Virus record (IMG/VR): IMGVR_UViG_3300032797_000085
Span: 1-31,963 of that record
Direction: 5' to 3' (one strand)
Length of the DNA: 31,963 nucleotides
Source of the DNA: a virus
Shown here: positions 3,251-30,255 of the stretch, piece after piece
How positions within the stretch are numbered: position 1 is the stretch's first letter
Layout: every line of letters begins with the position of its first letter
The notes under the pieces: generated by a model
Databases searched by the model: none
The model's input: only the letters and a program-made list of their open reading frames with translations
Told to the model about the DNA's origin: nothing
Made by a program: the position numbers and the translations under genes

Positions 3251-3973
3251 TTAGATTAGGACCCCGTTATTTATCCTATCTTTGGCAAAGCCCATATACT
3301 CTTCGTTGAGCTCTATGCCTATGAAGCTCCTATTAAGCTTTTTTGCGGCTACTCCGGTAGTGCCACTTCCCATAAACGGGTCAAGAACTGTATCCCCCTC
3401 TTTTGTGGAGTACTTTATAAGTTCCTCCATTAACCATACCGGTTTCTGGGTCGGGTGTTTTGTCCGTTCGTGGCCAGCTACTATCGGGTGGTAAAAACAA
3501 TTGCAATGCTGTCCGTTCTCCCACCTAAAACTATCGTGTCCTTTCTCCTTGTGTGCGAGAAAAAATAGTTCTGTGGCGTGCATATATTTTACCTTACGTA
3601 CTTGGGGAACGGGGTTGGATTTAATCCAGACACACGTTTGTCGGTAAACCATACCACTACTTCTTACCATACGTCGTATATCGGACAAGTATCTATCGGA
3701 AGTAAAGCAGTAGAACGTACCACTCGGCTTTAATACACGTTTGGTTTCGTTCACCAACTGACCGATAAGGGATAAGAAGTCTTCATCAGAGAACTTATCC
3801 CATTCAGCTTCTAATGCTATTTTCCTTGATACACCGTCTTTGTATCGTGTATCGTAGACCGGAACAATACCCTCCGCTATGTTATATGGTGGGTCGGTAA
3901 GGACCAAATCTATTGATCCGTCGGGTATCTCTTTAATCTTTTGTAAGCAATCACCTTGTATAAGTGTTATCAT
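3251..3973 (-). CDS. DNA methyltransferase, beta class (DPPY type), probably N6-adenine
   Basis: This 240-residue enzyme begins MITLIQGDCLQKIKEIP and has motif IV TDPPYN at residues 26-31, motif X-like HPTQKPVWLMEELI, and motif I DPFMGSGTT at about 198-206, then FIGIELN. The order makes it beta class, and DPPY favours N6-adenine. It overlaps the acidic gene upstream by ATGA and lies 15 nt before the nucleotidyltransferase-like gene. It is the only DNA methyltransferase on the minus strand, well away from the plus-strand island. No endonuclease gene accompanies it. Confidence 0.9.
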   Translation of the reverse strand: MITLIQGDCLQKIKEIPDGSIDLVLTDPPYNIAEGIVPVYDTRYKDGVSRKIALEAEWDKFSDEDFLSLIGQLVNETKRVLKPSGTFYCFTSDRYLSDIRRMVRSSGMVYRQTCVWIKSNPVPQVRKVKYMHATELFFLAHKEKGHDSFRWENGQHCNCFYHPIVAGHERTKHPTQKPVWLMEELIKYSTKEGDTVLDPFMGSGTTGVAAKKLNRSFIGIELNEEYMGFAKDRINNGVLI

Positions 3974-4155: not shown

Positions 4156-6351
4156 TTATGTACATTGTGACCATCCACACTGGGGACACTTGACACAGCC
4201 TTCGCTGTATTCAACTGGCGCCCCACAATCCTGGCACATTGTATGGTTGGTCTTTTCTACTATATTCTTTACTGGTGTTCCCTTTTCTTCCATATATCTT
4301 TTTAATGCCTTTGCTATGGCATCTGAACAGGATAATACCTTTTTAGGGCCCATACCAGCTGCCCTATGACATCCAATAGATAAGAGTTGCCTTATTATCT
4401 TATCCGGAGGTATTCTATTTCTGAATGATAAAGATACCATCCTTCCCAAGGCTTCCATATTTGCCTTAGGACAGTTCCCTCCCTTGCCTATTGTAGCGAA
4501 CAGCTCCACCGGAACGCCGGCTTCTGATTCGCATATGTTTATGAATAATCCACCACATCCGGTTACCATCTTGTAGTTCTTACCAACAGTGACGTCCGGA
4601 CGTTTTAGTTCCTCCGGTATTACTATCTCTACTTCTTTCTTTTTTCCGTAGCTCTTTGAGGTGGTTAATGGTTGTTCCTCTTTGCTACCATCCCTATATA
4701 CTGTGATACCCTTTAATCCCTCCTCAAATGCCATACGATACGCCCTGTCCACATCCTCTTTAGGAGCGTCTTTTGGCAGGTTGATTGTCTTGGATACGGC
4801 ATTACAGACGTGTTTCTGGAAAGAAGATTGCATCCTGATATGGCCTTCCAATGGTACTTCTTGCGCGGTTACAAACACCTTTCTTATATCAGAGGGTATT
4901 TCGTCTATTCCTGTCAGAATTCCACCGTTATCTGCTATCTTTTGGATTAGCTTCTTGTTGTGTATTTCCTTCTCTTTTAACTTTTCCTCAAGATATTTAT
5001 TAACATAAAACAATTTCTCTCCTTCGCATACCGTCTTTGTAAAGGCTAAAGAGAAGTTCGGCTCTATCCCAGACGAACAATCTGCTATGATACTTAACGT
5101 TCCGGTGGGAGCTATGGTTATGAGTGTTGCGTTTCTTCTCGGCTCTTCGTCCTTATATATAGACTTACCGAACTCCGGGAAAGGGCCACGTTTCTTTGCA
5201 AGGTAGTGTGTAGATTCCAAAGCACAATCTTTTACAAACTTCATTACCTTTCGTGCTATCCGTAATGATTGGCCGGACCCGTATGCTATACCAGCCATAG
5301 TCAGAAGGTCAGCCCATCCCATTATTCCAAGACCGACCTTTCTTGTCCTGTCGCTGGCTTCCTTTATCTGCTGTAAAGGGAGCTTGTTCATAGTGATAAC
5401 GTTGTCCAAGAACCTTATTGCCGTATCAATATCCTTTGCTAACTCTTTTTCTGTAAGCAGAGTATCGCTTCGTTTGCTGAAATACTTTGATAGATTTATG
5501 GATCCGAGATTACAAGATTCGTAGTCGTTTAAGGGCTGTTCTCCGCAGGGGTTAGTTGACTTTATAGGACTATCAGGTATAGGATTATGTCTATTTATTT
5601 CGTCTATGAATATGATTCCTGGATCTCCTTTTTTCCACGCATTCTCTACGAGCTTGTCCCATACTATCTTAGCCTCAAGCTTGCCTACCGGTTGTTTAGT
5701 GTGAGGGTCTACTAGGTCATAGGATTCACCATTCTCCAAAGCCTCCATAAACTTATCAGTTATGGCTACGGATATATTGAAGTTTGGGAATAGGCCGTCT
5801 TTCTTACACTCCATAAACTGCATTATTTCTGGGTGGTCTACACGTAGAGCTGCTAGAGCAGCTCCTCGTCTTTTTCCTCCCTGCTTTATAGTATCCACAG
5901 TAACGTCGAATACTCTCATAAAGCTTATAACACCGGAGGCTACTCCTTGCGTTGATTGGACTATGGATCCTGCAGGACGAATTGCCGAAAAGTCAAACCC
6001 ACAACCTCCACCACTCTTATAGACTAACGCAGAGTCGTTTACTGACTTGAATATTCCGTCCATACTGTCCGGTATCGGTATTACAAAACACGCCGAAAGC
6101 TGTTGCATATCTGTTCCAGCATTCATTAGGGTAGGGCTATTAGGTAGGAACTTAAGCTCTGCCATTATTCGGTAGAACTCTTCTTCGTAATATTTTCTGT
6201 CTTTTTCGTCTGTCTCTGCTGATGCTATGTTTATCGCAACTCTCTTGAATAGCTCCTCCGGTGTCTCTATTACTTCTCCCTTTGTGTTCTTTCTCAAATA
6301 CCTCTTTTCAAAGACCTTTAACGCGTTCTCGCTCAAGTGTACTTTAGTCAT
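4156..6351 (-). CDS. nrdJ: Adenosylcobalamin-dependent (class II) ribonucleotide reductase
   Basis: The 731-residue product reduces ribonucleotides to deoxyribonucleotides and so supplies DNA precursors in the infected cell. The active-site loop NPCGE places the thiyl-radical Cys at C269 with N267 and E271. C88 (LSACFVIP) and C280 (ESCNLGSIN), 11 residues after C269, form the redox pair. The PTGTLSIIADCSSGIEPNF block is characteristic of NrdJ. The C-terminus has CxxC pairs (MCQDCG, KCPQCGWSQC) for zinc and thiol relay. The start ATG at 6351 follows AGGAGA. It is coupled to small membrane-peptide genes upstream. A class II enzyme needs cobalamin but neither oxygen nor a small subunit, and none is visible. 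Confidence 0.95.
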   Translation of the reverse strand: MTKVHLSENALKVFEKRYLRKNTKGEVIETPEELFKRVAINIASAETDEKDRKYYEEEFYRIMAELKFLPNSPTLMNAGTDMQQLSACFVIPIPDSMDGIFKSVNDSALVYKSGGGCGFDFSAIRPAGSIVQSTQGVASGVISFMRVFDVTVDTIKQGGKRRGAALAALRVDHPEIMQFMECKKDGLFPNFNISVAITDKFMEALENGESYDLVDPHTKQPVGKLEAKIVWDKLVENAWKKGDPGIIFIDEINRHNPIPDSPIKSTNPCGEQPLNDYESCNLGSINLSKYFSKRSDTLLTEKELAKDIDTAIRFLDNVITMNKLPLQQIKEASDRTRKVGLGIMGWADLLTMAGIAYGSGQSLRIARKVMKFVKDCALESTHYLAKKRGPFPEFGKSIYKDEEPRRNATLITIAPTGTLSIIADCSSGIEPNFSLAFTKTVCEGEKLFYVNKYLEEKLKEKEIHNKKLIQKIADNGGILTGIDEIPSDIRKVFVTAQEVPLEGHIRMQSSFQKHVCNAVSKTINLPKDAPKEDVDRAYRMAFEEGLKGITVYRDGSKEEQPLTTSKSYGKKKEVEIVIPEELKRPDVTVGKNYKMVTGCGGLFINICESEAGVPVELFATIGKGGNCPKANMEALGRMVSLSFRNRIPPDKIIRQLLSIGCHRAAGMGPKKVLSCSDAIAKALKRYMEEKGTPVKNIVEKTNHTMCQDCGAPVEYSEGCVKCPQCGWSQCT

Positions 6352-7199: not shown

Positions 7200-7230
7200 A
7201 TATTAATACAACTTTATGTAGAAAAATCCA
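7200..7230 (-). promoter_or_regulatory. Bipartite phage promoter candidate P1
   Basis: On the minus strand TGGATTTTTC (7230-7221) is followed after 12 nt by TATTAATAT (7208-7200), the architecture shared by five other sites here. It drives the gene starting at 7194, with 5 nt between the box and ATG. It overlaps the 3' end of the 7214-7498 gene. Confidence 0.6.
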
Positions 7231-11042: not shown

Positions 11043-11073
11043 ATATTAATACTAAAACGAGCGAAAAATTACT
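11043..11073 (-). promoter_or_regulatory. Bipartite phage promoter candidate P2
   Basis: On the minus strand AGTAATTTTT (11073-11064), 12 nt, then TATTAATAT (11051-11043). The downstream leader is about 20 nt and holds AAAGGAG before ATG 11022. The upstream box overlaps the stop of the sigma-like gene. Confidence 0.6.
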
Positions 11074-11578
11074 CATATTTTTTCATCTCGTCGTAATCCA
11101 CCATTAAGGACTTATAATCGAGGCCCATCTTTGCGGCTACGTTTATTATGTAGTTTTTCGTCAGGACCGGGGATTTATACCAACCCTTACGGAGCTCCTT
11201 CTTAAGCTCGTTCTGTATGCCGTAGACGATACAGCACGTAAAGTAGTTGAATGCCTTTGACTTAACCCGGCCGTCCTTATGCGCGGGCTTCCAGCAGTGG
11301 ATAGCGGTCATCATATTCAACATCATACTCTGGATCAGGTCTTCCTTATCGTGTGAGTTCGGCATAGGGAAATTTCCGGGGCAGATGTTATTGTAGATAT
11401 TACGGACGGCTATGTTGTAGACGGAATTGATTATCTTTTTGAAGATTACGAACAGCTGGTCAAGGGTCTTTGGATCCTTTGTTCTCTTATACCGACGAAG
11501 TAATCGCTCAAACTCATCATTATCTACATACTGGACCTTTGGCTTCTTTTGGGCCGATTCCTGCTTTTTCTTTGCCAT
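11069..11578 (-). CDS. gp55-like phage sigma factor
   Basis: The 169-residue basic protein has a sigma region 2-like core: HDKEDLIQSMMLNMMTAIHCWKP (about 76-98), then KAFNYFTCCIVYGIQNELKKELRK (108-131). The same order, D(E)LIQ..M...AI...KP followed by FAYFT..I..A...I.KE, is seen in T4 late sigma factor gp55 (185 aa), which lacks region 4. It would direct host RNA polymerase to phage promoters. A basic N-terminus (MAKKKQESAQKKPK) precedes. The start ATG 11578 has no Shine-Dalgarno and lies 7 nt after a TATTAATA box, so its own message may be leaderless and come from the same promoter class. It is transcribed divergently from the 11687 operon. Confidence 0.7.
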   Translation of the reverse strand: MAKKKQESAQKKPKVQYVDNDEFERLLRRYKRTKDPKTLDQLFVIFKKIINSVYNIAVRNIYNNICPGNFPMPNSHDKEDLIQSMMLNMMTAIHCWKPAHKDGRVKSKAFNYFTCCIVYGIQNELKKELRKGWYKSPVLTKNYIINVAAKMGLDYKSLMVDYDEMKKYE

Positions 11579-11584
11579 ACATAC

Positions 11585-11615
11585 ATATTAATATAAAAAA
11601 GTGTAAAATTTTACA
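11585..11615 (-). promoter_or_regulatory. Bipartite phage promoter candidate P3 (sigma-like gene)
   Basis: On the minus strand TGTAAAATTT starts at 11615, then 12 nt, then TATTAATAT (11593-11585), followed by ATG at 11578. The upstream box is half of a palindrome shared with divergent promoter P4. The whole architecture matches P6 closely, including a T-rich run before TATTAATAT. Confidence 0.65.
11602..11615. repeat. 14-bp perfect palindrome shared by divergent promoters
   Basis: TGTAAAATTTTACA reads the same on both strands. Each strand supplies the TGTAAAATTT box of one divergent promoter (P3 and P4). It could equally be an operator where a dimeric regulator controls both units. Confidence 0.7.
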
Positions 11616-11632
11616 TACTTTCGCATTAATAT
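11602..11632 (+). promoter_or_regulatory. Bipartite phage promoter candidate P4 (start of plus-strand block)
   Basis: TGTAAAATTT (11602-11611), 12 nt, then CATTAATAT (11624-11632), the same spacing as the other sites with one change in the first base of the -10-like box. It points at the gene starting at 11687, leaving a leader of about 45-50 nt with GGAGGG before the TTG start. Confidence 0.55.
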
Positions 11633-12737: not shown

Positions 12738-13700
12738 ATGGACGTATCTGCCGAATTCATACAATATATATTAAAGAAACAGGATATAGATTTTAAGCAT
12801 TACCCGGACAAAGGGTTCTTCCAAATCTGTAACCCGTTCACTGACGATAGAAAGTTCCATATGGGACTGAACTATCGGCTTCAAGTTTATAACTGTTTCA
12901 AGACCTCCGAAAAGGGTGGTCTTTTCTTTTTCTTCCGAAAGCTATTGAACGTGTCGGAGGAGAGGCTGATACATATGCTTATGAAGTTCAACAAGCATAA
13001 GCCTATCGTTATCAAGGAGCAGGAAGAGGTAGTAGATGACGGAGTGGTCCACTATCACAACGTTCCTAATAACTGGGTATTGGTTGACGATATACCGGCC
13101 CAACCGGCAAAGAGTATGCACTATGCTTATCTATTACGTAGGAACATATCTAAGGATAAGATACTAAGGAATAAGTTCTATTACTCTACTCAAGATACAT
13201 CGAGAGTTGTAATACCTTACACTATGAATGGGAACTTGGTCTATTGGATAGCACGGGATATATTAGGTAAGGCGGATAAGAAGTACCTATATCCCCCAGA
13301 GAACCTTGTAAAGAACAAGCGCAGTGATCTTCTATATAACTATGACTTCGCAAACCGAGATGAACTAATTATATGCGAGGGGCAGTTCAACGCACTCATA
13401 GTTGATGGGGTTGCCATAGGGGGTAAGGATATATCAGATATGCAGTTGAAGCTGATACGGTTTATGGCACCGAAAAAGGTCATATTGGCATTTGACCAAG
13501 ACGTTCCGGGGAAGAAGGCTATAGCGAAGAACTTGCCTTTACTTGCTCCATACTTTAATGACAACCTATATTTTCTATCGGCAGATGTTACGGAAGAGGA
13601 CTTTGCGGATATGGGAGAAGAGGGAGCTCGTCGGTATATTACATCAAACGTTAGTCGTTATACACCGGCCAGTGCTTATGCCGAAAAATTCTTCCATTAA
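12738..13700 (+). CDS. DNA primase with TOPRIM domain
   Basis: The 320-residue protein is a DnaG-type primase that would make RNA primers for the helicase encoded downstream. The TOPRIM core is clear: ELIICEGQFNAL with E214, then AIGG, and VILAFDQDVPGKKA with DQD at 253-255 binding metal. The N-terminal zinc domain is partly degenerate: ICNPF (C31), H41 and YNCF (C53) fit the CHC2 layout, but the last CxxC pair is reduced to a single Cys. Length is similar to T4 gp61. It has no helicase domain; that is a separate gene at 15619. A short hairpin spans its stop codon. Confidence 0.85.
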   Translation: MDVSAEFIQYILKKQDIDFKHYPDKGFFQICNPFTDDRKFHMGLNYRLQVYNCFKTSEKGGLFFFFRKLLNVSEERLIHMLMKFNKHKPIVIKEQEEVVDDGVVHYHNVPNNWVLVDDIPAQPAKSMHYAYLLRRNISKDKILRNKFYYSTQDTSRVVIPYTMNGNLVYWIARDILGKADKKYLYPPENLVKNKRSDLLYNYDFANRDELIICEGQFNALIVDGVAIGGKDISDMQLKLIRFMAPKKVILAFDQDVPGKKAIAKNLPLLAPYFNDNLYFLSADVTEEDFADMGEEGARRYITSNVSRYTPASAYAEKFFH

Positions 13701-13708: not shown

Positions 13709-13734
13709 TATTTAGAACGGATTTGTATTAATAT
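13704..13734 (+). promoter_or_regulatory. Bipartite phage promoter candidate P5
   Basis: TGGAATATTT (13704-13713), 12 nt, then TATTAATAT (13726-13734), with ATG 13741 only 6 nt further on. It would serve the membrane peptide, the bS21 homologue and probably the genes through the replicative helicase. Confidence 0.6.
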
Positions 13735-13740
13735 CTATGT

Positions 13741-13887
13741 ATGAAAAATTTACTTATTGTTTTGGGCGTTGTCGTATATATTGTGATAGTCATTCTACTG
13801 GTGAACGAAAGGCCGCAACAGCAATATCATAAGTCTTGTTCCACTTGTAGCAGTGGCAAATGCAACGCTGTAATTGAGGTTAGATAA
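13741..13887 (+). CDS. Small membrane protein with Cys-rich tail, 48 aa
   Basis: ATG 13741 opens MKNLLIVLGVVVYIVIVILLV, one transmembrane helix, then a polar tail with CSTCSSGKC, three closely spaced cysteines. There is no Shine-Dalgarno, and the -10-like box ends 7 nt before the ATG, suggesting a leaderless message. An ATG at 13737 in another frame gives a 31-residue product without features and is less likely. Function unknown. Confidence 0.6.
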   Translation: MKNLLIVLGVVVYIVIVILLVNERPQQQYHKSCSTCSSGKCNAVIEVR

Positions 13888-13898
13888 CGGGGGTGTAG

Positions 13899-14345
13899 AT
13901 GTCGGATAAGTTGTCAACACAGGAAATAGCGACGGCCCTTGAGGCCACCAAAACAGCGGAAATTACTGTTACCGCTAACGGAACGATTAAGCCTAGGTGG
14001 GAAGAGAAACCTAGGGAAACCGGTCTACGTATAGAGGTAAGAAGGATGGATAACAAAGATGCACAGATGTTTGAGATTGATAGGTGCTTACGGAAACTCA
14101 AGAAGCGTTGCGAAAAGGAAGGTATCTTTAGCATACTTCGTGATCGTCAGCATTACCGGAAACCATCTGAAATAAGGAGAGAGAAGGCTAAAATAGCCAG
14201 AAGGCTAGCCGAAAGACGTAAGAAGAAGCAGGACGAGAGGGATGCCCTCTACGAAAACACGAAGTTCGTACCAGCAAAAAGACGATATGAAGAAAGAGGT
14301 GATAACTCTAATGTTGTTAATAGACGAAATTTTCAAAAAACTTAA
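13899..14345 (+). CDS. Ribosomal protein bS21 homologue
   Basis: Residues about 44-110 align by eye with bacterial small-subunit protein bS21: LRIEVRRMDNKDAQMFEIDR, then CLRKLKKRCEKEGIFSILRD, then RQHYRKPSEIRREKAKIARR, matching the family pattern IKVRENE..D.ALRRFKR.CEKAG...E.RRR..YEKPS..R.RK. bS21 sits near the 3' end of 16S rRNA and affects mRNA start selection, and phage-encoded copies are known from large phages. This copy is longer than the usual 60-70 residues, with an N-terminal extension (1-43) and a basic C-terminal extension (111-148). GGGGGTG precedes ATG 13899. It would be expected to enter host ribosomes, which is inference. Confidence 0.8.
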   Translation: MSDKLSTQEIATALEATKTAEITVTANGTIKPRWEEKPRETGLRIEVRRMDNKDAQMFEIDRCLRKLKKRCEKEGIFSILRDRQHYRKPSEIRREKAKIARRLAERRKKKQDERDALYENTKFVPAKRRYEERGDNSNVVNRRNFQKT

Positions 14346-14574
14346 AGATGAAAAACAGATGGAATGGACAGATGTTATGAGCGGTCTGGTGGAATGGGCT
14401 GCGAGTAAGTATGGGGATGAGGTAGGCGACGTAATACTTCTTGAAAAATATCCAACCTTCGTCGACATAGTAAACGCATACTACACAGAGTTATCCCTGA
14501 CCGCTCAAGCAGAGGTCAACGCAGCGCCAATAGTTGTACCGATAATAGAAGAAACAGTGTCCCGAACGGACTAA
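14311..14574 (+). CDS. Hypothetical helical protein, 87 aa
   Basis: I choose ATG 14311 because GAGGTG lies 9 nt upstream; earlier in-frame starts at 14242 and 14287 lack a ribosome site and overlap bS21 more. The product is helical (MLLIDEIFKKLKDEKQ..., VMSGLVEWAASKYGDEV) with a Pro/Ile-rich end. No family is recognised. It overlaps the bS21 gene by 35 nt. Confidence 0.55.
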   Translation: MLLIDEIFKKLKDEKQMEWTDVMSGLVEWAASKYGDEVGDVILLEKYPTFVDIVNAYYTELSLTAQAEVNAAPIVVPIIEETVSRTD

Positions 14575-14864: not shown

Positions 14865-15677
14865 GTGCCAAAGGCCAGGAAAAAGCTTTTAATTGGGGAG
14901 GCAGACGTTGAGCATTGTTGTAGTGCCAAATGGGAGGGGCTGAATAAGGAACAGAAGTTCAATGTAGTTTACGATAAGACACTTGCCTTGCAGATTAGGT
15001 TGGCAAACAAGCTTATCGGGAACCTGAAGCGGTTTGAGTGCTACACTTCAGAGGACTACTTGGAAACAGACGACATTCTCCAAGAATGTTCGGTGTTGCT
15101 GTGGACGTTGTTGAATAGCTACGGTCATATTCCCTACCAGGATTTCCTACGTCTTTATAAAACATCTATTTGGAAAGCGGTATACCTATCTGGTATCAGC
15201 AAAGCCAAGCTGAAAAAGAACGCCTGCCTTACAGCTCCGTCATCAGAATCCAATCCGACACTCCAAGATGATATACTGAGGAGAACAGACGATGTTGAGC
15301 TTGTTCCCGTCAACAGCTTTGATGCTCTGTTTGATAAGATGGATATGGAGTGGATTAAGGAGGGGTTTAATAAGTTTATAAGCAGTGTTCCTACTATGAC
15401 CGATACCGATAAGAAGATATTCAACCTTATCGCAAACCCGTCCGACGGGTTCATAGATTTCTGCCTAAAGAGGAACAACTCAAAGAAGAACACAGCCAAA
15501 AAAATCATAAACAACGTGAACATAGCCAAGTTTCTTGATATCTCTCCAACTGGAGTAGGTATGAGCATCAAAAGAATTACCGACACCTTCAGTCGGTATC
15601 AAAGGAGAACCGAAACAGTTGATAATAGAGAAGTTCAAGAACAAGAAGTTCGAGTTCGGGAAAAATCTGGAGTTTGA
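14865..15677 (+). CDS. Second sigma-factor-like protein, GTG start
   Basis: AAAGGAGGG lies 7 nt before GTG 14865. The 270-residue product has a region 2-like segment, DDILQECSVLLWTLLNSYG (69-87) followed by FLRLYKTSIWKAV, which matches the D-I-x-Q-E...L..AL..Y...F..Y....I..A pattern of sigma factors. The C-terminus (about 220-250) has a possible helix-turn-helix, NIAKFLDISPTGVGMSIKRI, as in region 4. It would bind host RNA polymerase or act as a DNA-binding regulator. It differs from the gp55-like protein in having a C-terminal domain. It overlaps the helicase gene by 59 nt. The assignment rests on pattern, not on strong identity. Confidence 0.5.
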   Translation: MPKARKKLLIGEADVEHCCSAKWEGLNKEQKFNVVYDKTLALQIRLANKLIGNLKRFECYTSEDYLETDDILQECSVLLWTLLNSYGHIPYQDFLRLYKTSIWKAVYLSGISKAKLKKNACLTAPSSESNPTLQDDILRRTDDVELVPVNSFDALFDKMDMEWIKEGFNKFISSVPTMTDTDKKIFNLIANPSDGFIDFCLKRNNSKKNTAKKIINNVNIAKFLDISPTGVGMSIKRITDTFSRYQRRTETVDNREVQEQEVRVREKSGV

Positions 15678-17130
15678 AGTAGCAAAAACAATAATAGACA
15701 ATAGGCGGTTCTTGGTATCAGTAATCGAGTACGTCGATTCTGATTTCTTTGATAGCAAGACCGCTGGTATTGTGGTTGATATAGCAAAGAACCACTTTAA
15801 GAAATACTCTGATTCTCCTACTATTGACATCATAAAGGCCGAGGCTAAGAACTACCTCACCCCAAAAGACGATGTAGACCTATTCTTTTCAGAGCTTAAG
15901 CAGATAGAGGATTTGGTAATTCCCGAAACTGAAAAGCAGTATGTAAGGGATCAGACTATTGCCTTATGTCAGTATAATGCCTTGAAGCTGGCCCTGTTTG
16001 AGGGGGCCGAGATCCTTATCACCGAAACAGACCTGCCGGAAGACTATGTAGGAACTATAAACGAGAAGATTAAGAAGGCAATATCGGTTGCCGAACACAA
16101 GGATTTAGGTCTTAATTATCTTAACAACCCACAAGTTCGTATAGCCGAGGAAATACGCAATAGGAATTCGGAGAACAGAATATCCACCGGTATAAAGAGG
16201 CTCAATGATGTTCTTTACGGTGGTTGGTCCTCGCAGGAATCTACCCTATCTGTTGTAGTTGCTCCCACCGGGATAGGAAAGTCCATCTTCCTCTGTAATT
16301 TCGGAGCCGCCGCTGTAAATAGTGGAAAAAAGGTAATCCATTTTACCCACGAACTGTCGGAAATGAAGACAGCCGCTAGATATGACAGCATACTCTCAAA
16401 GGTTAAGCAAAGCGATAGGTTGGAAGTTCCGTCTGAACGGGAAAAGCTGTTTCGTTCTCTTGCCAAGATACAAAACCAGTATGGAGATATAATACGGATA
16501 AAAGAATATCCTACCAAGACGTGTTCTACTATGACTATACGCAGTTATATTGAGAAAGTGCGTGAGCTAGAGAACTTCGTTCCTGATATCATCATAACCG
16601 ACTACCTTGATATTATGGTTGCGAATTTTAATGCCTTTACGGAGGACGAGTATAATCAGCAGAAACGAATATCGGTTGAACTTAGGGCTCTGGCGCAGGA
16701 GCTAGATGTTCCTATAATAACAGCTTCGCAGACCAATAGAACCGGAGCAAAGGGAGACGATGCTGACGAAAAGGCAAGTAAAAGAAGGATGCTACGGGGA
16801 ACAGACATAGCAGAATCATTCGGCAAGGTGTTTGCTAGCGACCTTTTGATGTCAGTAAACCAGACACCGGAGGAAAGGTCTGTTGGGAAATGTTCTCTGT
16901 ATATAGACAAGAATAGGAATGGTCCTTGTGGTTTGCGTATTCCTATGGTTATAAACTACGACACAATGAGTATACTTGAAGCTTGTGAGTCGGATACAGA
17001 TGCGGATACGGCTTATAAAGCTTATGTAGATGCTAAGAAAAATAAGGATAAACCGGCCAGTGCGGAGCTGGAAGATGACGATTTCATACCAGTTCCCCCA
17101 ACTGATACGGTTAAACCGATAGATATATAG
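15619..17130 (+). CDS. Replicative DNA helicase, DnaB/gp41-like
   Basis: The 503-residue protein is a RecA-fold hexameric helicase that would unwind the fork and partner with the primase at 12738. An N-terminal domain (1-160) like that of DnaB precedes STGIKRLNDVLYGG. Walker A is APTGIGKS (215-222), Walker B IIITDYLD with D328, and SVELRALAQELDVPIITASQ forms the conserved H3-type segment. ITASQTNR supplies the sensor Gln. The C-terminus is an acidic, Pro-rich tail (ELEDDDFIPVPP), plausibly for protein contacts. TTG 15619 is the start, with AAAGGAG 11 nt upstream. It overlaps the sigma-like gene by 59 nt. Confidence 0.9.
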   Translation: MIIEKFKNKKFEFGKNLEFEVAKTIIDNRRFLVSVIEYVDSDFFDSKTAGIVVDIAKNHFKKYSDSPTIDIIKAEAKNYLTPKDDVDLFFSELKQIEDLVIPETEKQYVRDQTIALCQYNALKLALFEGAEILITETDLPEDYVGTINEKIKKAISVAEHKDLGLNYLNNPQVRIAEEIRNRNSENRISTGIKRLNDVLYGGWSSQESTLSVVVAPTGIGKSIFLCNFGAAAVNSGKKVIHFTHELSEMKTAARYDSILSKVKQSDRLEVPSEREKLFRSLAKIQNQYGDIIRIKEYPTKTCSTMTIRSYIEKVRELENFVPDIIITDYLDIMVANFNAFTEDEYNQQKRISVELRALAQELDVPIITASQTNRTGAKGDDADEKASKRRMLRGTDIAESFGKVFASDLLMSVNQTPEERSVGKCSLYIDKNRNGPCGLRIPMVINYDTMSILEACESDTDADTAYKAYVDAKKNKDKPASAELEDDDFIPVPPTDTVKPIDI

Positions 17131-17716: not shown

Positions 17717-17863
17717 ATGAACGGTGTTCCTTGGAAGGAAATAATAGAGTTATTGAGGTTTTGGGGGTGGATAGCCTTCGGTATAACTATGGTGAAAATG
17801 ATACAAACCATAATAGTAGAAGTGTTTACGAGAACGTGTAGGCATTGCGGTAAGAGAGTATGA
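17717..17863 (+). CDS. Small membrane protein with C-terminal CxxC, 48 aa
   Basis: GGGGG precedes ATG 17717. The product has an amphipathic N-terminus (MNGVPWKEIIELLRFWGW), a hydrophobic helix and a C-terminal TCRHCGKRV. The stop overlaps the Dam-like methyltransferase by ATGA, making this the last gene of the lipoprotein and membrane cluster. Function unknown. Confidence 0.6.
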   Translation: MNGVPWKEIIELLRFWGWIAFGITMVKMIQTIIVEVFTRTCRHCGKRV

Positions 17864-18675
17864 GAGGATTCAAAAGCCCTTTAAATTGGTATGGTGGAAA
17901 GTATTATATGGCGCCGGAGCTAATAAAGATGTTCCCTAGGCATAGGGTTTACTGTGAGGTCTTTGGTGGGGCTGGCCACGTCCTATTTAAGAAGAACCGT
18001 AGTCTTATAGAGGTCTACAACGACAAGCACGAATGCCTATATTTGCTGTTTAGTATGCTTAGGGACGAGGCTAAGAGAAACATCCTTATACCGAAGCTTC
18101 AGCTAACACCTTATTCAAGGCAGGAATTTAATGCGTGTCGTGATTGGCCGGAAGAGAAAGACCCTATTGAAAAGGTCCGTAAGTTCTATGTAATGACTAT
18201 GCAATCTATATCCACCAACGGTGGTTGGGCGTATGCGAGGACAGTATCAAGACGGGGTATGTCCGGGATAGTGAGTAAGTGGCTTGGGAACGTGGACGAA
18301 AACCTTATAGACGCGATTGAGAGGTTAAGGGAAGTCCAGATAGAGAACCTGGATTGTATTGAGTGTATAGAGAAATATGACAGCGAGGATACGTTATTCT
18401 ATCTTGATCCACCATACGTTTTGGATTCACGAAGCGCTCCGGATTCCGGGTATACGCACGAAATGACCGATGACGACCATAGAAAACTCATTAACTGCTT
18501 ATTACAAATAAAGGGTAAGGTTCTGCTTAGCGGATACGATAACGATATATATAAGGAATTGGAGAATAAGGACTGGCAGAAGATAAAACTAGGGGAATAC
18601 AAGAAGTTCAGTGATATGGATAGGGATATAGCAACAGAATATATTTGGAAGAATTTTGGGAAAGGTGTTATATGA
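17860..18675 (+). CDS. Dam-like (D12 class, alpha) DNA N6-adenine methyltransferase
   Basis: The 271-residue enzyme has the D12/Dam order: an N-terminal SAM-binding region with SPLNWYGGKYYMAPEL and motif I EVFGGAG (33-39), a central target-recognition region, then motif IV YLDPPY (181-186). Dam-family enzymes methylate adenine N6, often in GATC-type sites; the site cannot be read from sequence. It is the only alpha-class enzyme here and starts the methyltransferase island. The start overlaps the preceding stop by ATGA, and the deformylase gene starts by ATGA overlap at its end. Confidence 0.93.
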   Translation: MRGFKSPLNWYGGKYYMAPELIKMFPRHRVYCEVFGGAGHVLFKKNRSLIEVYNDKHECLYLLFSMLRDEAKRNILIPKLQLTPYSRQEFNACRDWPEEKDPIEKVRKFYVMTMQSISTNGGWAYARTVSRRGMSGIVSKWLGNVDENLIDAIERLREVQIENLDCIECIEKYDSEDTLFYLDPPYVLDSRSAPDSGYTHEMTDDDHRKLINCLLQIKGKVLLSGYDNDIYKELENKDWQKIKLGEYKKFSDMDRDIATEYIWKNFGKGVI

Positions 18676-19163
18676 ACAAGATAAACGGAAAAGAAGTTCC
18701 AAGCGGTTCAGTATTACCGATTATAAGTTACATAACCGACGATAAAGGAGATTTATCTAAGCCCTGTGTTCCAGTTACCGAGATTACACCGGAAACAGCA
18801 AAGCTGATAGACGATATGATTCTGACTATGGTGATTGTCGGGGGTCTTGGTCTGTCGGCACCGCAGGTCGGGGTTCATTTGCAGATATTCGTGGTAAGTG
18901 GGGTTGTGGCCGGCCAGGATGAAGCAGTAGTATGCGTCAACCCGGAAATGACTCCTCTTAGTGAGGGAAAGAACAACGCAAAGGAATACTGTTTAAGCTA
19001 CCCAGATATGGGTAAGTATGTTGAGAGGTATAACGAGGTCCAAATAAAGGCATATGGCAGGGACTTGAAACAGCAGTTCGTATTGTGTGGTGAGGGTGTT
19101 CAGGCCCGTGTATTACAGCACGAAATGGACCATATGCGGGGCATAACCCTAATAGACAAGTAG
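18672..19163 (+). CDS. def: Peptide deformylase
   Basis: The 163-residue metalloenzyme would remove the formyl group from new N-terminal Met. All three family motifs are present: GLGLSAPQVG (58-67), EYCLS with metal ligand C107 (usually EGCLS), and QHEMDHMRG (149-157) with two His ligands and the catalytic Glu. ATG 18672 is preferred to an earlier ATG at 18645 because it forms the ATGA overlap and the motifs then sit at normal positions. Phage deformylases are known and are thought to aid translation of phage proteins. It lies inside the methyltransferase island without an obvious link. Confidence 0.92.
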   Translation: MNKINGKEVPSGSVLPIISYITDDKGDLSKPCVPVTEITPETAKLIDDMILTMVIVGGLGLSAPQVGVHLQIFVVSGVVAGQDEAVVCVNPEMTPLSEGKNNAKEYCLSYPDMGKYVERYNEVQIKAYGRDLKQQFVLCGEGVQARVLQHEMDHMRGITLIDK

Positions 19164-19170
19164 GAGATAT

Positions 19171-19338
19171 ATGAAAACATTATGCATAGTTTGTGGAGAG
19201 GAATTAGAAGAGAAAATGGATTTAATAACGTCGTTCCCAGCAAAAACAGAACGCTTTTGTAATAACGAAAAGTGTCCTAGATATGGGCTGATTACCGTAG
19301 TATGGAGAGAGCAGGATTGGAAGACTACCGATGAATAG
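19171..19338 (+). CDS. Small zinc-finger protein, 55 aa
   Basis: AGGAGATAT precedes ATG 19171. The product has CIVCGEELEE and, after about 22 residues, FCNNEKCPRYG, giving a CxxC...CxxxxC zinc site, then a beta-like tail. The stop overlaps the next methyltransferase start by 8 nt. Function unknown; its place before a methyltransferase is the only clue. Confidence 0.7.
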   Translation: MKTLCIVCGEELEEKMDLITSFPAKTERFCNNEKCPRYGLITVVWREQDWKTTDE

Positions 19339-20563
19339 TTGGTTGAATCAAATACACAAAGGCAATGTTCTGGACGTATTATATAATATGCCTAAGAATT
19401 TTGTATCTTGTTGCGTTACTTCACCGCCGTATTGGTCTTTGCGTGATTACGGAGTAGACCCTCAAATTTGGGATGGAGATAAGAGCTGTAAGCACGAATG
19501 GGAACAAGAGGTAACCAAAAGGCCGAATGCGGCCGGGGGAAAGACCGGTTGGAACGCGGCTAAGGGTAAGGATAACGTAAGTGAGTTCGTAGACTATCAT
19601 AAAAGAGAAACCTACTCCGATTTCTGTAAGAAGTGTGGGGCTTGGAAAGGGTGTCTTGGCCTGGAGCCGACGGCAGAGTTATATGTGAAACATATATGCG
19701 ATGTATTTGACGGCGTTCGTCATACTTTAAGGGACGACGGAGTTATATATCTCAATATTGGAGACACCTATATTAGCGGTGGTGGTCCTTCTAGGCATAT
19801 GGGGTATGGGGATCCGAAGAACCCCAAAGTTGGAGAGGTGGATTTCCAAGAGCCGAAAACTATGATACAAAGCTTCCCTGAAAAGTGTCTTGGTATGGTG
19901 CCTTATAGGGTTGCTCTTGGTATGATAGCTCGTGGTTGGGTACTTCGTAATATAATAATGTGGCATAAGCCGAATGCTATGCCTACGTCTGTATCTGATA
20001 GATATACAGTTGATTTTGAGCCAATATTCTTTTTCTCTAAATCATCTGATTACTATTTTGAACAGCAGTTTGAGAAGGTGAGCATTAAAGATATACCCCC
20101 TAGGATAAAGAGAACTACTTGGTCGGTGTCTACGAAACCTCTAAAAGAGGAACACTTTGCTCCATACCCGGAGGAGCTGGTTGAGGATCCTATTAAAGCA
20201 GGCTGTCCCTGTGCCATATGTAACAAGTGTGGTAAGCCGAGGGAGAAGATTATAGAGAGAGTTGGTCCTTCGTCATACGACCTTACAAAGAACGACGATA
20301 AATCTCATTGGAAGTCAGAACAAGGCCAAAAGCAGAATATGAGAGGACCAAGAGAAGCTTACGAAAGGCCGATTAGGGAGCTTGGCTATACCGATTGCGG
20401 ATGCAACGCGGGGTTTCATCCTGGTGTTGTATTAGACCCGTTTATGGGTAGCGGGACTACGGCAATAGCAGCTAAGAAGTTAGGTAGGGATTATGTTGGT
20501 ATAGACCTTAACCAGAAGTATATAGATATCGCATACAGACGATTAAAAACAGTGATGATATGA
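19331..20563 (+). CDS. DNA methyltransferase, beta class (TSPPYW type) with inserted zinc knuckle
   Basis: This is the longest DNA methyltransferase here, 410 residues. Motif IV is TSPPYWSLRDYG (30-41) and motif I DPFMGSGTT begins at D369, then YVGIDLN. SPPYW followed by LRDYG is the pattern of a widespread phage and bacterial group, often N4-cytosine type though adenine cannot be excluded. The target-recognition region contains C292, C294, C297 and C300 (GCPCAICNKCGKP), a likely zinc site, and there are earlier CKHE and CKKCG groups, so it may bind two zincs. ATG 19331 overlaps the preceding gene by 8 nt. It ends in ATGATATGA, coupled to a small gene. Confidence 0.92.
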   Translation: MNSWLNQIHKGNVLDVLYNMPKNFVSCCVTSPPYWSLRDYGVDPQIWDGDKSCKHEWEQEVTKRPNAAGGKTGWNAAKGKDNVSEFVDYHKRETYSDFCKKCGAWKGCLGLEPTAELYVKHICDVFDGVRHTLRDDGVIYLNIGDTYISGGGPSRHMGYGDPKNPKVGEVDFQEPKTMIQSFPEKCLGMVPYRVALGMIARGWVLRNIIMWHKPNAMPTSVSDRYTVDFEPIFFFSKSSDYYFEQQFEKVSIKDIPPRIKRTTWSVSTKPLKEEHFAPYPEELVEDPIKAGCPCAICNKCGKPREKIIERVGPSSYDLTKNDDKSHWKSEQGQKQNMRGPREAYERPIRELGYTDCGCNAGFHPGVVLDPFMGSGTTAIAAKKLGRDYVGIDLNQKYIDIAYRRLKTVMI

Positions 20564-20700
20564 AAAAAAGAAAGAAAATTACTATGGAAAGATATAATAA
20601 GATAATGAATAAGATAATCAAAATGGGTAAGCCTGTAAGTGATACCTTGATTGAAATGTTAGACGAAGCCTCCAAATATACAATAAAGGCTAAGAAATGA
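20560..20700 (+). CDS. Small basic protein, 46 aa
   Basis: ATG 20560 overlaps the upstream stop by ATGA and its own stop overlaps the next methyltransferase start by ATGA, so it is a translational link between two methyltransferase genes. The product is very basic (MKKRKKITMERYNKIMNKII) and helical. It could bind nucleic acid, but no function is assignable. Confidence 0.6.
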   Translation: MKKRKKITMERYNKIMNKIIKMGKPVSDTLIEMLDEASKYTIKAKK

Positions 20701-21443
20701 TAGAACTGAATAAGATTTACAATGGGGATTGTGTGGAGGTATTGAAAACCTTCCCGGACAGCTTTGTGGATTTGGTTGTTACCTCCCCTCCCTATAATTG
20801 TGGTATCAAATATGATTCATACGAGGATAAGATAGATATAGACCAATACTACAAATGGTCTAAGGATTGGATGTCGCAGATATTTAGGGTATTGAAAAAA
20901 GACGGCCGGTGCTGTATAAATCATTATTTAAGTATGGGGAGCTCGCAAATAAGACACGCTCCTTTAATGACATTAAACGAAATAGCTGTTAGGGAGATAG
21001 GATTTAAACATCACGGGGTAGCACTTTGGATGGATAAGACACTTAGTAATAAAACAGCTTGGGGGTCGTGGTTGTCGGCTTCCGCTCCTTATATAGCTTC
21101 TCCGATTGAAGGAATACTTATATTATATAAGGAATTATGGAAAAAGGAAAAAGTTGGAGGTGTTTCCGATATAAGCAAGGAAGACTTTATAATGGGATGT
21201 CGTGGTATTTGGGATATATCAACAGACAGAAAAAGGCTAACTATGGCGACTTTTCCGGAGGAACTTCCGAAGCTCTGTATTCAGCTTTTTAGCTATGTTG
21301 GAGACACTGTTCTTGACCCGTTCTCCGGCAGTGGAACAACGGTTACAGTAGCAAAACGTTTATACAGAAATTATGTTGGTATAGAGTTAAGCCCCAACTA
21401 TACAAAAGTGGGGGAATCGCGGGCAAAGCAGGTGATAATATGA
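20697..21443 (+). CDS. DNA methyltransferase, beta class (TSPPY type)
   Basis: The 248-residue enzyme has motif IV TSPPYN (29-34) and motif I DPFSGSGTT (207-215), then RNYVGIELSPNY. The order is beta class, and SPPY leans towards N4-cytosine without proof. The shared N-terminal block and the RNYVGIEL segment make it a likely paralogue of the enzyme at 582-1289, though the middle, which should hold target recognition, differs. ATGA overlaps couple it to the small basic gene before and the metallophosphoesterase after. Confidence 0.92.
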   Translation: MIELNKIYNGDCVEVLKTFPDSFVDLVVTSPPYNCGIKYDSYEDKIDIDQYYKWSKDWMSQIFRVLKKDGRCCINHYLSMGSSQIRHAPLMTLNEIAVREIGFKHHGVALWMDKTLSNKTAWGSWLSASAPYIASPIEGILILYKELWKKEKVGGVSDISKEDFIMGCRGIWDISTDRKRLTMATFPEELPKLCIQLFSYVGDTVLDPFSGSGTTVTVAKRLYRNYVGIELSPNYTKVGESRAKQVII

Positions 21444-22661: not shown

Positions 22662-23248
22662 AAAAGAAAATGATAGTCGTTGATATTGACGGAGTGTTAG
22701 CCAGGTTTGACGAGCTGTTCGATGCGTTCATACAAAGGATGATGCCGGAGATAGACAAGCCACGAAAAGAGCAAGTTCATTTGACGGATAGGTATAATCT
22801 CCCTACGTCAATGATAGATGTCGTATTTGAGAAATTTGTTAATGATAGTATGTTCGCATACTGCAAACCTTACCCTGATATCCATAGGGTAAACTACCTC
22901 AAAGACCCCGTTATAATAACGGTAAGACCAAAAGAGGCCGCAGAAGATACGTATATGTGGTTAGCTAGGCACGACATATCGTTCAATAAGGTTATTATCA
23001 CAAAAGATAAGTCCAAATACGCAAAAGACACTGCTGTTATATTTGAGGATAGAGGAGAGTATATATTGCCTTTCGCAGAAGCAGGCGCTAGGTGCTTCCT
23101 ATTCGACCAGCCATATAATCAGGATATAAAGCATAAGAACATCATAAGGGTATCCGGCTGGAAAGACATAAATACAAGTGAGATAAACAGTTATGTTAAT
23201 AAAGTATCGGGGATTGGAACTAGAGCTAACGCAGTTGCCAAGCGGTAA
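22658..23248 (+). CDS. HAD-superfamily phosphatase, 5'-nucleotidase-like
   Basis: ATG 22658 overlaps the preceding stop by ATGA and places motif I at the N-terminus: MIVVDIDGVLARFDELF with nucleophile D9 and acid D11. Motif II is IITVRP and motif III-like IITKDKSKYAKDTAVIFEDRGE. The 196-residue length and layout suit small phage HAD proteins related to 5'(3')-deoxyribonucleotidases and polynucleotide 3'-phosphatases. It may adjust nucleotide pools or repair ends. The last 56 nt overlap the next gene in another frame, an unusually long overlap for this window. Confidence 0.8.
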   Translation: MKKKMIVVDIDGVLARFDELFDAFIQRMMPEIDKPRKEQVHLTDRYNLPTSMIDVVFEKFVNDSMFAYCKPYPDIHRVNYLKDPVIITVRPKEAAEDTYMWLARHDISFNKVIITKDKSKYAKDTAVIFEDRGEYILPFAEAGARCFLFDQPYNQDIKHKNIIRVSGWKDINTSEINSYVNKVSGIGTRANAVAKR

Positions 23249-24086
23249 ATACAAGAAGCCGAACATATCTCAGTTCGTTAAATCCGGACGGGGTAGTACG
23301 TGGTTGGACGATTGTAGGATCCCCTATGCTAGTGAGTTCGATAAGTCCCAAGCCACACCGCAAGGCAAATGTACCGCAAACAGCAGTGCCGGAGCCAGGC
23401 CAGACGCGGGTGAGGGTTTGGAACGGGGGGAATTTGATAGGCCGGACCTTGTTGGCAGGTTCCCGTCTAATCTCATAGTGAGTGATGACGTTTTTGGGTC
23501 GGTTCAAAGTGAGGGGGCTATGGCTCCGGTAAAGGCAGGACAGAAGGGCTGGGGAGGGGAGATATACGGAAAGTTCAACGCTGGCGGAGATGACGGAAAG
23601 AGCTTCTATTCTGATAAGGAAACGTCTAAGTCGTTTTCAAGGTACTTTGACCTAGATAAGTGGGCTGCTGACAGAGGAGTTAAAGACACCTTTCCTTTTC
23701 TTATATGTCCAAAGGCAAGTAAATCAGAGAAGAACCAAGGACTAGAAAATACCGACCTTCCGGAGCGTGTGGTTAGCGGGGAGACTACCGATTTCGGTAA
23801 AATGGGTATTAATACTCCAGAAATGCGTGAAAAACGGGGTGTTACGACAGAGCTGCCGAGATACAAGAATTTTCACCCTACGGTAAAGCCGGTAAAGTTG
23901 ATGTCCTACCTTATTACTTTAGGGTCAAGACGAAATGATACTATTTTAGACCCATTTATGGGTAGTGGAACTACCGGTGTGGCAAGTAAGCAGTTGGGTA
24001 GAGATTTTATAGGAATAGAACTTAACTCTGAATATATGGAAATAGCAAAAAAGAGAATAGAGAATACGCAGGAGCCGATGATATGA
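23193..24086 (+). CDS. C-terminal half of a beta-class DNA methyltransferase, copy 1 (no DPPY)
   Basis: The 297-residue product has motif X-like HPTVKPVKLMSYL, motif I DPFMGSGTT (253-261) and FIGIELN, but no (D/S)PPY motif IV anywhere. Internal blocks GRGSTWLDDCRIP, GRFPSNLIVSDDV, SFSRYFDLDKW and PFLICPKASKSEKN are those normally found in the middle of one-piece phage methyltransferases of this family. It is a paralogue of 24718-25563 from the first residues (IKYRGLELELTQLP versus IKYRGVDIELEKLP), and 32 nt at 23283 and 24808 differ at only two positions. It starts inside the HAD gene without a clear ribosome site and ends by ATGA overlap with the N-terminal half. Alone it should bind SAM but not catalyse. 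Confidence 0.8.
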   Translation: MLIKYRGLELELTQLPSGKYKKPNISQFVKSGRGSTWLDDCRIPYASEFDKSQATPQGKCTANSSAGARPDAGEGLERGEFDRPDLVGRFPSNLIVSDDVFGSVQSEGAMAPVKAGQKGWGGEIYGKFNAGGDDGKSFYSDKETSKSFSRYFDLDKWAADRGVKDTFPFLICPKASKSEKNQGLENTDLPERVVSGETTDFGKMGINTPEMREKRGVTTELPRYKNFHPTVKPVKLMSYLITLGSRRNDTILDPFMGSGTTGVASKQLGRDFIGIELNSEYMEIAKKRIENTQEPMI

Positions 24087-24721
24087 ACAAGATAATAAAT
24101 GGGGATTGTCTGGAAGTGTTAAAATCACAACCAGCCAATTCTGTAGATTTGATAGTCACAGATCCTCCTTATGGTTATTCGTTTATGGGTAAAGAGTGGG
24201 ATAAGGCAGTACCTCCAGTAACCATTTGGAAGGAGTGCCTCCGAGTATTAAAGCCGGGTGCGTTTGCGTTTGTAATGAGCGCTCCTAGGCAGGACGTTCT
24301 GCATAGAATGATAGAGAAGTTAGAACAGGCTGGGTTTGATACGTCCTTTACGAGTATATACTGGGCCTACGCAAGCGGTTTCCCTAAGGCTATGAACTTA
24401 GGTAAGGCAGTTGACCGTAAGCTTGGGAACGAGAGGGAAGTGGTAGGAAGAAACCCTAATAGCAGAGAGAACTGCGACAAGTCCAATACCATATACGAGA
24501 GCGGAACTGTCGGAAAGACTGATTACATAACCAAAGGTACTTCTCCATTAGAGGGAAGTTATGGTGGGTTCCAGCCGAAGCCGGCCGTTGAAATTATCAT
24601 AGTGGCTATGAAACCTATGGTTGAGGATACCTATATAGCCCAATCATTAGCTAGGGCAGATGAGGAAGAGCAGATATTAAAAGAGATAGAGAAAGAACAC
24701 GGGATAGAAATAGAACGATGA
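24083..24721 (+). CDS. N-terminal half of a beta-class DNA methyltransferase (DPPY, no SAM motif)
   Basis: The 212-residue product starts MNKIINGDCLEVLKSQP and has motif IV TDPPYGYSFMG (26-36), then ECLRVLKPGAFAFVMSAPRQ and SYGGFQPKPAVEIIIVAMKP. In one-piece relatives the chain continues into TWLDDCRIP and ends with DPFMGSGTT. Here it stops after a new acidic helix (ADEEEQILKEIEKEHG), and the SAM motif is supplied by separate ORFs. DPPY favours N6-adenine. ATGA overlaps join it to a C-terminal half on each side, so all three are translated in series. A recent frameshift is unlikely because both edges are clean start and stop codons with extra sequence on each side. Confidence 0.85.
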   Translation: MNKIINGDCLEVLKSQPANSVDLIVTDPPYGYSFMGKEWDKAVPPVTIWKECLRVLKPGAFAFVMSAPRQDVLHRMIEKLEQAGFDTSFTSIYWAYASGFPKAMNLGKAVDRKLGNEREVVGRNPNSRENCDKSNTIYESGTVGKTDYITKGTSPLEGSYGGFQPKPAVEIIIVAMKPMVEDTYIAQSLARADEEEQILKEIEKEHGIEIER

Positions 24722-25563
24722 ATATAAAGTATCGTGGTGTTGACATTGAACTAGAGAAGCTTCCAAATGGGAAGTATAAGAAGCCGGATATAGCACAATT
24801 TACCAAGTCCGGACGGGGTAGCACGTGGCTGGACGATTGCCGTATACCGATAGCAAAGGGAGACGAGCCTCACGGCGGGTATGGTGAGGAAGTCATAGGA
24901 TTTGGACCATTTGATAACAAGGGAGGGGTAAAGTGGCAGGTTAGTCCTACTGCCGATAAAGGCAGGTTCCCTGCGAACCTTGTTGTAAGCGACGACGTTC
25001 TTAATGACGGGGAAGACCACGTTGGATTTGCCGGACAAACCCATATGACAGAGTTTAATCCTTATGGTGGGAACGCACTTAACCAGAGTTCCACGACGAG
25101 GAAGGGATATGTAGAGGGATTTGATAAGAGCGGGTCTTTTTCACGATTTTTCTCGTTAGATGCTTGGTGGAATAGGCATATATCTAAACTTCCGGAGGAC
25201 GTTAGAAAGGTATTTCCGTTCCTGATATGCCCTAAGGCAAGTAAGTCCGAAAAGAATAAAGGTTTGGAAGATAATATGTTTGATAGGGAATGCCGATGGA
25301 ATAATGCCGGAGAGTGGACAAACCTAAAGACAACCGGATATGGAAATAACCATCCTACTGTAAAGCCGATAAAACTTATGTCTTATCTTGTTGCGTTAGG
25401 TTCTCGTCCGGACGACATAGTATTAGACCCGTTTATGGGTAGTGGGACTACGTGCGTAGCCGCAAAGATGTCCGGAAGAAAATATATAGGGATAGAGTTA
25501 AACAAAGATTATTATTCAATAGCAGAAAAGAGAATAGGGATAACAGGGAGTCCGATGATATGA
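24718..25563 (+). CDS. C-terminal half of a beta-class DNA methyltransferase, copy 2 (no DPPY)
   Basis: This 281-residue paralogue of 23193-24086 has the same N-terminal module (IKYRGVDIELEKLPNGKYKKP), GRGSTWLDDCRIP, GRFPANLVVSDDV, SFSRFFSLDAWW, PFLICPKASKSEKN, HPTVKPIKLMSYL and motif I DPFMGSGTT (237-245). It also lacks motif IV. The two copies diverge most at about residues 45-110 and 180-205, the part that in such enzymes can contact DNA. It overlaps the N-terminal half by ATGA and is its natural partner. The KYRG module of about 35 residues is absent from one-piece relatives as I remember them and may be a docking element. Confidence 0.82.
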   Translation: MNIKYRGVDIELEKLPNGKYKKPDIAQFTKSGRGSTWLDDCRIPIAKGDEPHGGYGEEVIGFGPFDNKGGVKWQVSPTADKGRFPANLVVSDDVLNDGEDHVGFAGQTHMTEFNPYGGNALNQSSTTRKGYVEGFDKSGSFSRFFSLDAWWNRHISKLPEDVRKVFPFLICPKASKSEKNKGLEDNMFDRECRWNNAGEWTNLKTTGYGNNHPTVKPIKLMSYLVALGSRPDDIVLDPFMGSGTTCVAAKMSGRKYIGIELNKDYYSIAEKRIGITGSPMI

Positions 25564-26450: not shown

Positions 26451-26481
26451 TGTAAAATTTGTCTAGTTTTTATATTAATAT
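26451..26481 (+). promoter_or_regulatory. Bipartite phage promoter candidate P6 (recombination module)
   Basis: TGTAAAATTT (26451-26460), 12 nt, then TATTAATAT (26473-26481), matching P3 in box sequence, spacing and the T-rich run before the second box. An AGAGGTG ribosome site and ATG 26500 follow at a normal distance. Confidence 0.65.
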
Positions 26482-29798: not shown

Positions 29799-29989
29799 AA
29801 AAGAAAAAAGAGGAAGTTTACACACTTACATTTAAGGGTTGGATAAGCACATATGTAAGCGATGTTGATCGTATTTTAAACGACCTTAAAGTTTATATGT
29901 ACGAATCAAAAAAGAACGGAATTGTATTAGACGAAGGCACTTTTAGTTTCGTTGAGATAGCGAAGGTAAAGGAGAAAAAGAAGAAATGA
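29795..29989 (+). CDS. Hypothetical basic protein, 64 aa
   Basis: ATGA overlaps join it to both neighbours. It has Lys-rich ends (MKKKKEEV, KVKEKKKK) around a beta-alpha-beta-like core (YTLTFKGWISTYVSDVDRIL). No family is recognised. It precedes the GroES-like gene in the same series. Confidence 0.6.
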   Translation: MKKKKEEVYTLTFKGWISTYVSDVDRILNDLKVYMYESKKNGIVLDEGTFSFVEIAKVKEKKKK

Positions 29990-30255
29990 ACATAAAGTTA
30001 ATGAAGAATACCCTATTCTTTGAGTTTGACAAGGAGGGAGGAGAGGAAACAAAGACCGACGGCGGTATTATAGTTCCAGAACAGAAGGATACCTTTATCC
30101 GAAAGGTTACCATAGCCGGTGAGAATGAGTTAGGAATTAAGGTTGGAGATAAGGTATTGCTCAATCCTCACGCACAGCTTATGGAGTTTAGGTTAGGGCT
30201 TAAGTGGTATAAGCTTTGCCCGGTATCAATGGTGGTAGCTGTCATTGAGGACTAA
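29986..30255 (+). CDS. GroES-like co-chaperonin
   Basis: The 89-residue product has the Cpn10 layout: MNIKLMKNTLFFEFD, a mobile-loop region with GGIIVPEQ (26-33), then VTIAGENELGIKVGDKVLL (41-59) and a final hydrophobic strand (SMVVAVIED). GroES is about 95 residues. Phage co-chaperonins such as T4 gp31 replace GroES on host GroEL and help fold large capsid proteins. The G-x-hhhP in the loop fits GroEL contact. It starts by ATGA overlap. Confidence 0.7.
   Translation: MNIKLMKNTLFFEFDKEGGEETKTDGGIIVPEQKDTFIRKVTIAGENELGIKVGDKVLLNPHAQLMEFRLGLKWYKLCPVSMVVAVIED

Follow-up and report, generated by a model that had tools for sequence, protein, structure and literature searches.

Does a phage gene lying among replication genes encode a genuine ribosomal protein bS21 and, if so, what might a bS21 of about double the usual length do to the ribosomes of an infected cell? 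The question was addressed in the window, i.e. the entire virus record of 31,963 nt, which is a fragment in which neither matching ends nor tRNAs were found. The gene set is phage-like (UvsW, UvsX, DnaB, primase, gp32-type SSB, a RuvC-like resolvase and a class II RNR), and the locus in question is arranged as follows:

12738–13700 (+): DNA primase, upstream of bS21 (phrog_47, E=2.7e-41)
13726–13734 (+): TATTAATAT promoter-like motif, ahead of the gene run that contains bS21
13741–13887 (+): 48-aa hydrophobic ORF directly 5' of bS21, candidate leaderless first gene, with its ATG 6 nt past the motif
13889–13895 (+): Shine-Dalgarno (SD) sequence GGGGGTG of the bS21 gene, read from the sequence, with a predicted pairing of −12.5 kcal/mol (duplex energy)
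13899–14345 (+): bS21 gene, 148 aa, supported by Pfam, NCBIfam, PHROG and PDB matches, codon usage and AlphaFold2 core helices
14311–14574 (+): 87-aa ORF sharing 35 nt with the 3' end of bS21, with an SD inside bS21 (−11.5 kcal/mol)
15619–17130 (+): DnaB-like replicative helicase, downstream of bS21 (phrog_19, E=8e-71; PF03796, E=9.5e-23)

The ORF extends exactly from 13899 to 14345, its ATG being directly preceded by an in-frame TAG, and assignment of its product as a phage-encoded bS21 is secure. Residues 60–102 match PF01165 of Pfam (40.5 bits, E=2.3e-10; curated cut-off 27 bits), residues 59–106 match the NCBIfam S21p equivalog TIGR00030 (42.5 bits, E=4.3e-11; curated cut-off 28.95 bits), and residues 60–118 match phrog_21469, ribosomal protein S21 (E=6.7e-9); many bS21 chains in the PDB also match, the best with E=4.5e-7. 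With both curated cut-offs passed, and significant matches in all three profile collections, the reading of the first-pass annotation, that a bS21 gene with extensions occupies 13899–14345 and should be recognised by a search against bS21 family profiles, is borne out. The boundaries drawn there require revision. A bS21 span of residues 44–110 had been proposed, of which residues ~59–106 match, whereas the ~15 N-terminal residues match no profile; similarly, the string VRRMDNKD (residues ~47–54), offered as part of the bS21 pattern, falls outside every profile match, although the remainder of the family call stands. Residues 60–118 align to residues 12–71 of E. coli bS21. The core is intact, with the pattern R..G..R.R..Y.KP present and R65, G75, R83, Y86, K88 and P89 invariant among 31 aligned viral bS21 proteins. 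It is also divergent, scoring 33.8 bits in a six-frame profile search versus mostly 50–89 for the cellular bS21 examined.

Relative to E. coli bS21, the core is flanked by an N-terminal extension of ~48 residues (~1–48) and a C-terminal extension of ~30 residues (~119–148). The resultant 148 aa is about double the usual length of bS21, which is typically ~55–100 aa by family habit rather than by any model criterion. Codon usage shows that both extensions are coding: log-odds trained on 18 other genes of the window are +0.24 per codon for the N-terminal part (13899–14045, residues 1–49) and +0.30 per codon for the C-terminal part (14205–14311), with trusted genes of the window at +0.24 ± 0.15 and off-frame readings at −0.20 ± 0.12. 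These values bear on whether the N-terminal extension is simply a start-site error. Initiation at ATG 14046, which follows a GAGG-type sequence at a distance of ~7 nt, would yield a near-normal bS21 of 99 aa, a more ordinary length. However, it would also leave an intergenic gap of 158 nt that scores as coding, 13899–14045 scores as high as trusted genes do and far higher than off-frame readings, and ATG 13899 has a strong SD ahead of it and lies 11 nt past the preceding stop codon. A misplaced start is, on this evidence, very unlikely.

No relative with such extensions was found among the viral and cellular bS21 examined. An alignment-based scan of IMG/VR gave 88 relatives, 80 of which were retained, and at the 55 loci inspected for ORF length the credible viral bS21 ORFs are 70–97 aa and have no long N-terminal extension. 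A few longer viral readings look like over-extended upstream start codons, and at two loci where the script misread the ORF (L055 and L073) the encoded bS21 is of ~70 aa. A tblastn search of 50,697 phage records revealed no bS21 relatives at E≤0.01, and single-protein scans of viral contigs with bS21, the primase and the product of the gene at 14865 gave no matches. It had been claimed that the extensions are absent from host proteins. This agrees with cellular bS21 from ~290 genomes of two phyla, where nearly all matching genomes carry one and open frames are mostly ~53–100 aa; a minority of open frames are longer, up to 365 aa, and may be over-extended starts. The doubly extended 148-aa protein is a new form of bS21, known from a single contig.

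An AlphaFold2 model, built from the 31-sequence alignment, has core helices at residues 52–74, 76–84 and 89–120, as expected for bS21, with block means mostly of 82–98 pLDDT and a whole-model pTM of 0.33. Within the N-terminal extension, a weak helix (residues 7–18) and short strands (22–24 and 30–32) were predicted at ~71–75 pLDDT, the remaining parts of the model being of low confidence. Foldseek returned no significant match to the model in either of two libraries, hence the extensions have no recognised fold, and comparison of the N-terminal extension with the PDB gave nothing meaningful.

The TATTAATAT motif matches seven times in the window versus 0.99 expected, and none of 100 shuffles reached seven; the matches represent five sites, two of which match on both strands. 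Besides the site ahead of bS21, these sites and the sigma-like gene associated with one of them are:

7200–7208 (−): TATTAATAT motif, 5' of the gene starting at 7194
11043–11051 (−): TATTAATAT motif, 5' of the gene starting at 11022
11069–11578 (−): gp55-like late-sigma relative (phrog_234, E=1.5e-6), leaderless candidate behind a TATTAATAT motif
11585–11593 (−): TATTAATAT motif, 5' of the gene starting at 11578
26473–26481 (+): TATTAATAT motif, 5' of the gene starting at 26500

The motif recurs in a sister contig (L082), with near-equal spacing before the homologue of the 7194 gene, and 53 bp surrounding the 11578 copy (11580–11632) are 96% identical there. At 7194 (−), 11578 (−) and 13741 (+), an ATG lies 5–6 nt past the motif and no SD is present; if TATTAATAT is a −10-type element, these three genes would be leaderless, judging from sequence. 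The 48-aa ORF at 13741–13887 shows negligible pairing (−0.1 kcal/mol), has no NCBIfam match, and has a codon score that did not separate coding from non-coding. Since this ORF lies directly upstream, bS21 may be the second gene in a transcript from 13741, with an SD of its own. On the 3' side, the non-overlapping part of the 87-aa ORF (14311–14574) has a coding score of +0.31 per codon and its product no convincing Pfam, PHROG or NCBIfam match; its translation is probably coupled to that of bS21. The listed start of the DnaB-like gene is TTG, and the true start may sit slightly 3'. Since the gp55-like sigma gene itself bears TATTAATAT, and a second motif-bearing gene is the immediate neighbour 5' of the SSB gene, late activity of the motif is not required. 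From the position of bS21 among replication genes, we infer that it is made at an earlier, replication stage.

The gene at 14865–15677 (+) has a GTG start and a strong SD, and encodes a 270-aa protein that by eye resembles sigma-70 regions 2 and 4 (DDILQECSVLLWTL...; IAKFLDISPTGVGMSIKRI). Support for a sigma identity was found in none of Pfam, PHROG or NCBIfam. If it is a sigma factor, the order primase-bS21-sigma would be reminiscent of the bacterial rpsU-dnaG-rpoD operon.

The kind of initiation that a phage bS21 might favour can be approached through the starts in the window. Median SD pairing is −7.0 kcal/mol versus −3.35 kcal/mol in the background, indicating that the phage relies on SDs, and 17 of 42 window starts pair at or past the strongest 5% of background. 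Most window genes, bS21 included, are SD-led, and candidate leaderless genes number only three. In turn, bS21 serves SD initiation, being needed by SD-led mRNAs, whereas 61S ribosomes without bS1, uS2 and bS21 select leaderless mRNAs (PMC4929434; also PMC12186496). The first-pass suggestion of a bias towards leaderless phage messages is therefore unsupported, since the ribosomes that select such messages are those without bS21, bS1 and uS2, and most genes here are SD-led. The three putative leaderless genes, with TATTAATAT 5–6 nt before the start, are what a bS21 that specifically steers ribosomes to leaderless phage mRNAs would act upon, but depletion of bS21 (with bS1 and uS2) is the condition that favours such mRNAs (PMC4929434). 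Steering of this kind is extremely unlikely.

Two schemes known from Bacteroidota were also considered and rejected. Self-regulation through an exceptional SD, the case described for Bacteroidota rpsU (PMC9976891), was set aside: at −12.5 kcal/mol the SD is strong, but two other window genes have a stronger one. Sequestration of the anti-SD (ASD) by bS21 involves Tyr54 in F. johnsoniae (PMC9723584); the equivalent position appears to be Arg102 in the phage protein, in a register taken from 7jil chain z (query 59–100 to chain 11–52, a single ungapped range extended by two residues), and there is no aromatic in residues 100–106. The ASD-blocking scheme does not fit a phage with so many SDs and, apparently, Arg102 in place of Tyr54.

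Phage-encoded bS21 and the ribosome-takeover hypothesis are already published, and copies in large phages, mentioned in the first-pass annotation, are indeed a known feature of large aquatic phages. Pelagimyophages, including HTVC008M, resemble this phage in encoding bS21 and peptide deformylase (PMC6375957, PMC7029224), both of which are core genes of that group (PMC7029224). Many of the recovered viral relatives have bS21 near UvsX and DnaB; UvsX, DnaB or SSB genes homologous to those of the window flank 42 of 80 viral bS21 loci (fetched flank ≤6 kb), which stem from few lineages and do not represent 42 independent events. The recovered relatives differ from the 148-aa protein in length and sequence, being 70–97 aa and ~30–49% identical to it over the aligned part. 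Sister contigs were recovered via the RNR, namely L082 (86%) and L083 (~74%), both of which stop short of the bS21 locus and contain no bS21 match; a UvsW scan refound L082 only, and a DnaB scan of viral contigs gave only helicases ~30% identical. For large Bacteroidetes-infecting phages, too, replacement of the host protein by the phage bS21 has been proposed (Chen et al. 2022, PMC9723584). However, in that clade the gene is late-expressed and lies among terminase/capsid (structural) genes on the opposite strand, whereas in the present phage it lies between the primase and DnaB helicase genes and runs in their direction. Cellular rpsU of the E. coli rpsU-dnaG-rpoD macromolecular-synthesis operon (PMC10931766) shares the core family and a nearby primase gene; it differs in that the phage primase is upstream of bS21, the phage protein has ~48 + ~30 extra residues, and the gene context is that of a phage.

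The preferred reading, to which we assign a probability of roughly 0.6, is that the phage bS21 replaces the host copy in host ribosomes and favours SD-led phage mRNAs, the extensions adding contacts to rRNA, mRNA or a factor. Published work already models phage bS21 as swapping into host ribosomes (PMC6375957, PMC9723584). In general, bS21 is late-assembled and exchangeable (PMC10931766), and it adjoins the anti-SD and supports SD-led initiation (PMC6375957, PMC10931766); moreover, HTVC008M bS21 enters E. coli ribosomes (PMC6375957). Against the reading stands the one published functional test that was found, in which ribosomes with this phage bS21 were nearly inactive (~5%) in vitro in the heterologous E. 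coli system (PMC6375957); the divergent core and the failure to find a relative with the extensions also count against it. Favouring of phage mRNAs is plausible in this phage, and not a new idea. In outline, bS21 would be produced together with the replication genes, displace the host bS21, which is bound loosely and can be exchanged, and dock via its conserved two-helix core in the host 30S platform, beside the 16S rRNA 3' end. SD-dependent initiation on phage mRNAs would thereby stay, or become, efficient on the ribosomes of the infected cell. Further contacts to rRNA are probably made by the long, basic helix at the C terminus. The N-terminal extension would protrude on the side where mRNA exits, and mRNA, bS1 or some other factor could be its partner there. 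In a more ambitious version, this extension would have evolved in the phage as a specificity arm at the 30S mRNA exit, recruiting phage mRNAs or displacing bS1, so that ribosomes dedicated to the phage arise as early as the DNA-replication stage; this version is improbable.

The extended protein could conversely act as an inhibitor of host translation, occupying the bS21 site and blocking or slowing initiation on host mRNAs with no specific favouring of the phage. The ~5% activity of ribosomes carrying HTVC008M bS21 is in keeping with this, and big extensions beside the mRNA path could obstruct it, but that loss of activity may, according to its authors, reflect host mismatch (PMC6375957). The phage itself needs the same ribosomes, and no extension-bearing relative was found with which conservation could be tested; inhibition is considered unlikely. 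Alternatively, a bS21-derived protein may have been repurposed, off the ribosome, to serve the replication module by binding RNA or DNA. Placement of the gene between primase and helicase, the two extensions and the divergent core could all be read in this way, and a cellular bS21 is reportedly found within a non-ribosomal RNP. However, the invariant core positions are kept and the TIGR00030 equivalog cut-off is passed; such a role is considered unlikely.

Other genes of the window include:

4156–6351 (−): adenosylcobalamin-dependent class II ribonucleotide reductase
18645–19163 (+): peptide deformylase
29986–30255 (+): GroES-like co-chaperonin (weak match)

The peptide deformylase and GroES-like genes represent further translation and folding functions of this phage. 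DNA methyltransferase-like genes are unusually many for 32 kb (564–1289, 3251–3973, 17860–18675, 19331–20563, 20697–21443 and 23193–25563); that at 17860–18675 was confirmed as a D12-class enzyme, the others being assigned by eye from motifs, and some are apparently split or duplicated, 23193–24086 and 24718–25563 being alike. The nearest cellular copies of the RNR, in Acidobacteriota, Omnitrophota and Aminicenantes MAGs, are ~45% identical, and naming of a host from this gene was rejected because they are too distant.

Among ribosomal proteins encoded by viruses, bS21 is the commonest. The protein described here, with an intact core and additions on both sides, is a natural construct in which separate deletions could probe mRNA selectivity, and its location within a replication module suggests that phages do not always reserve bS21 for the late phase.
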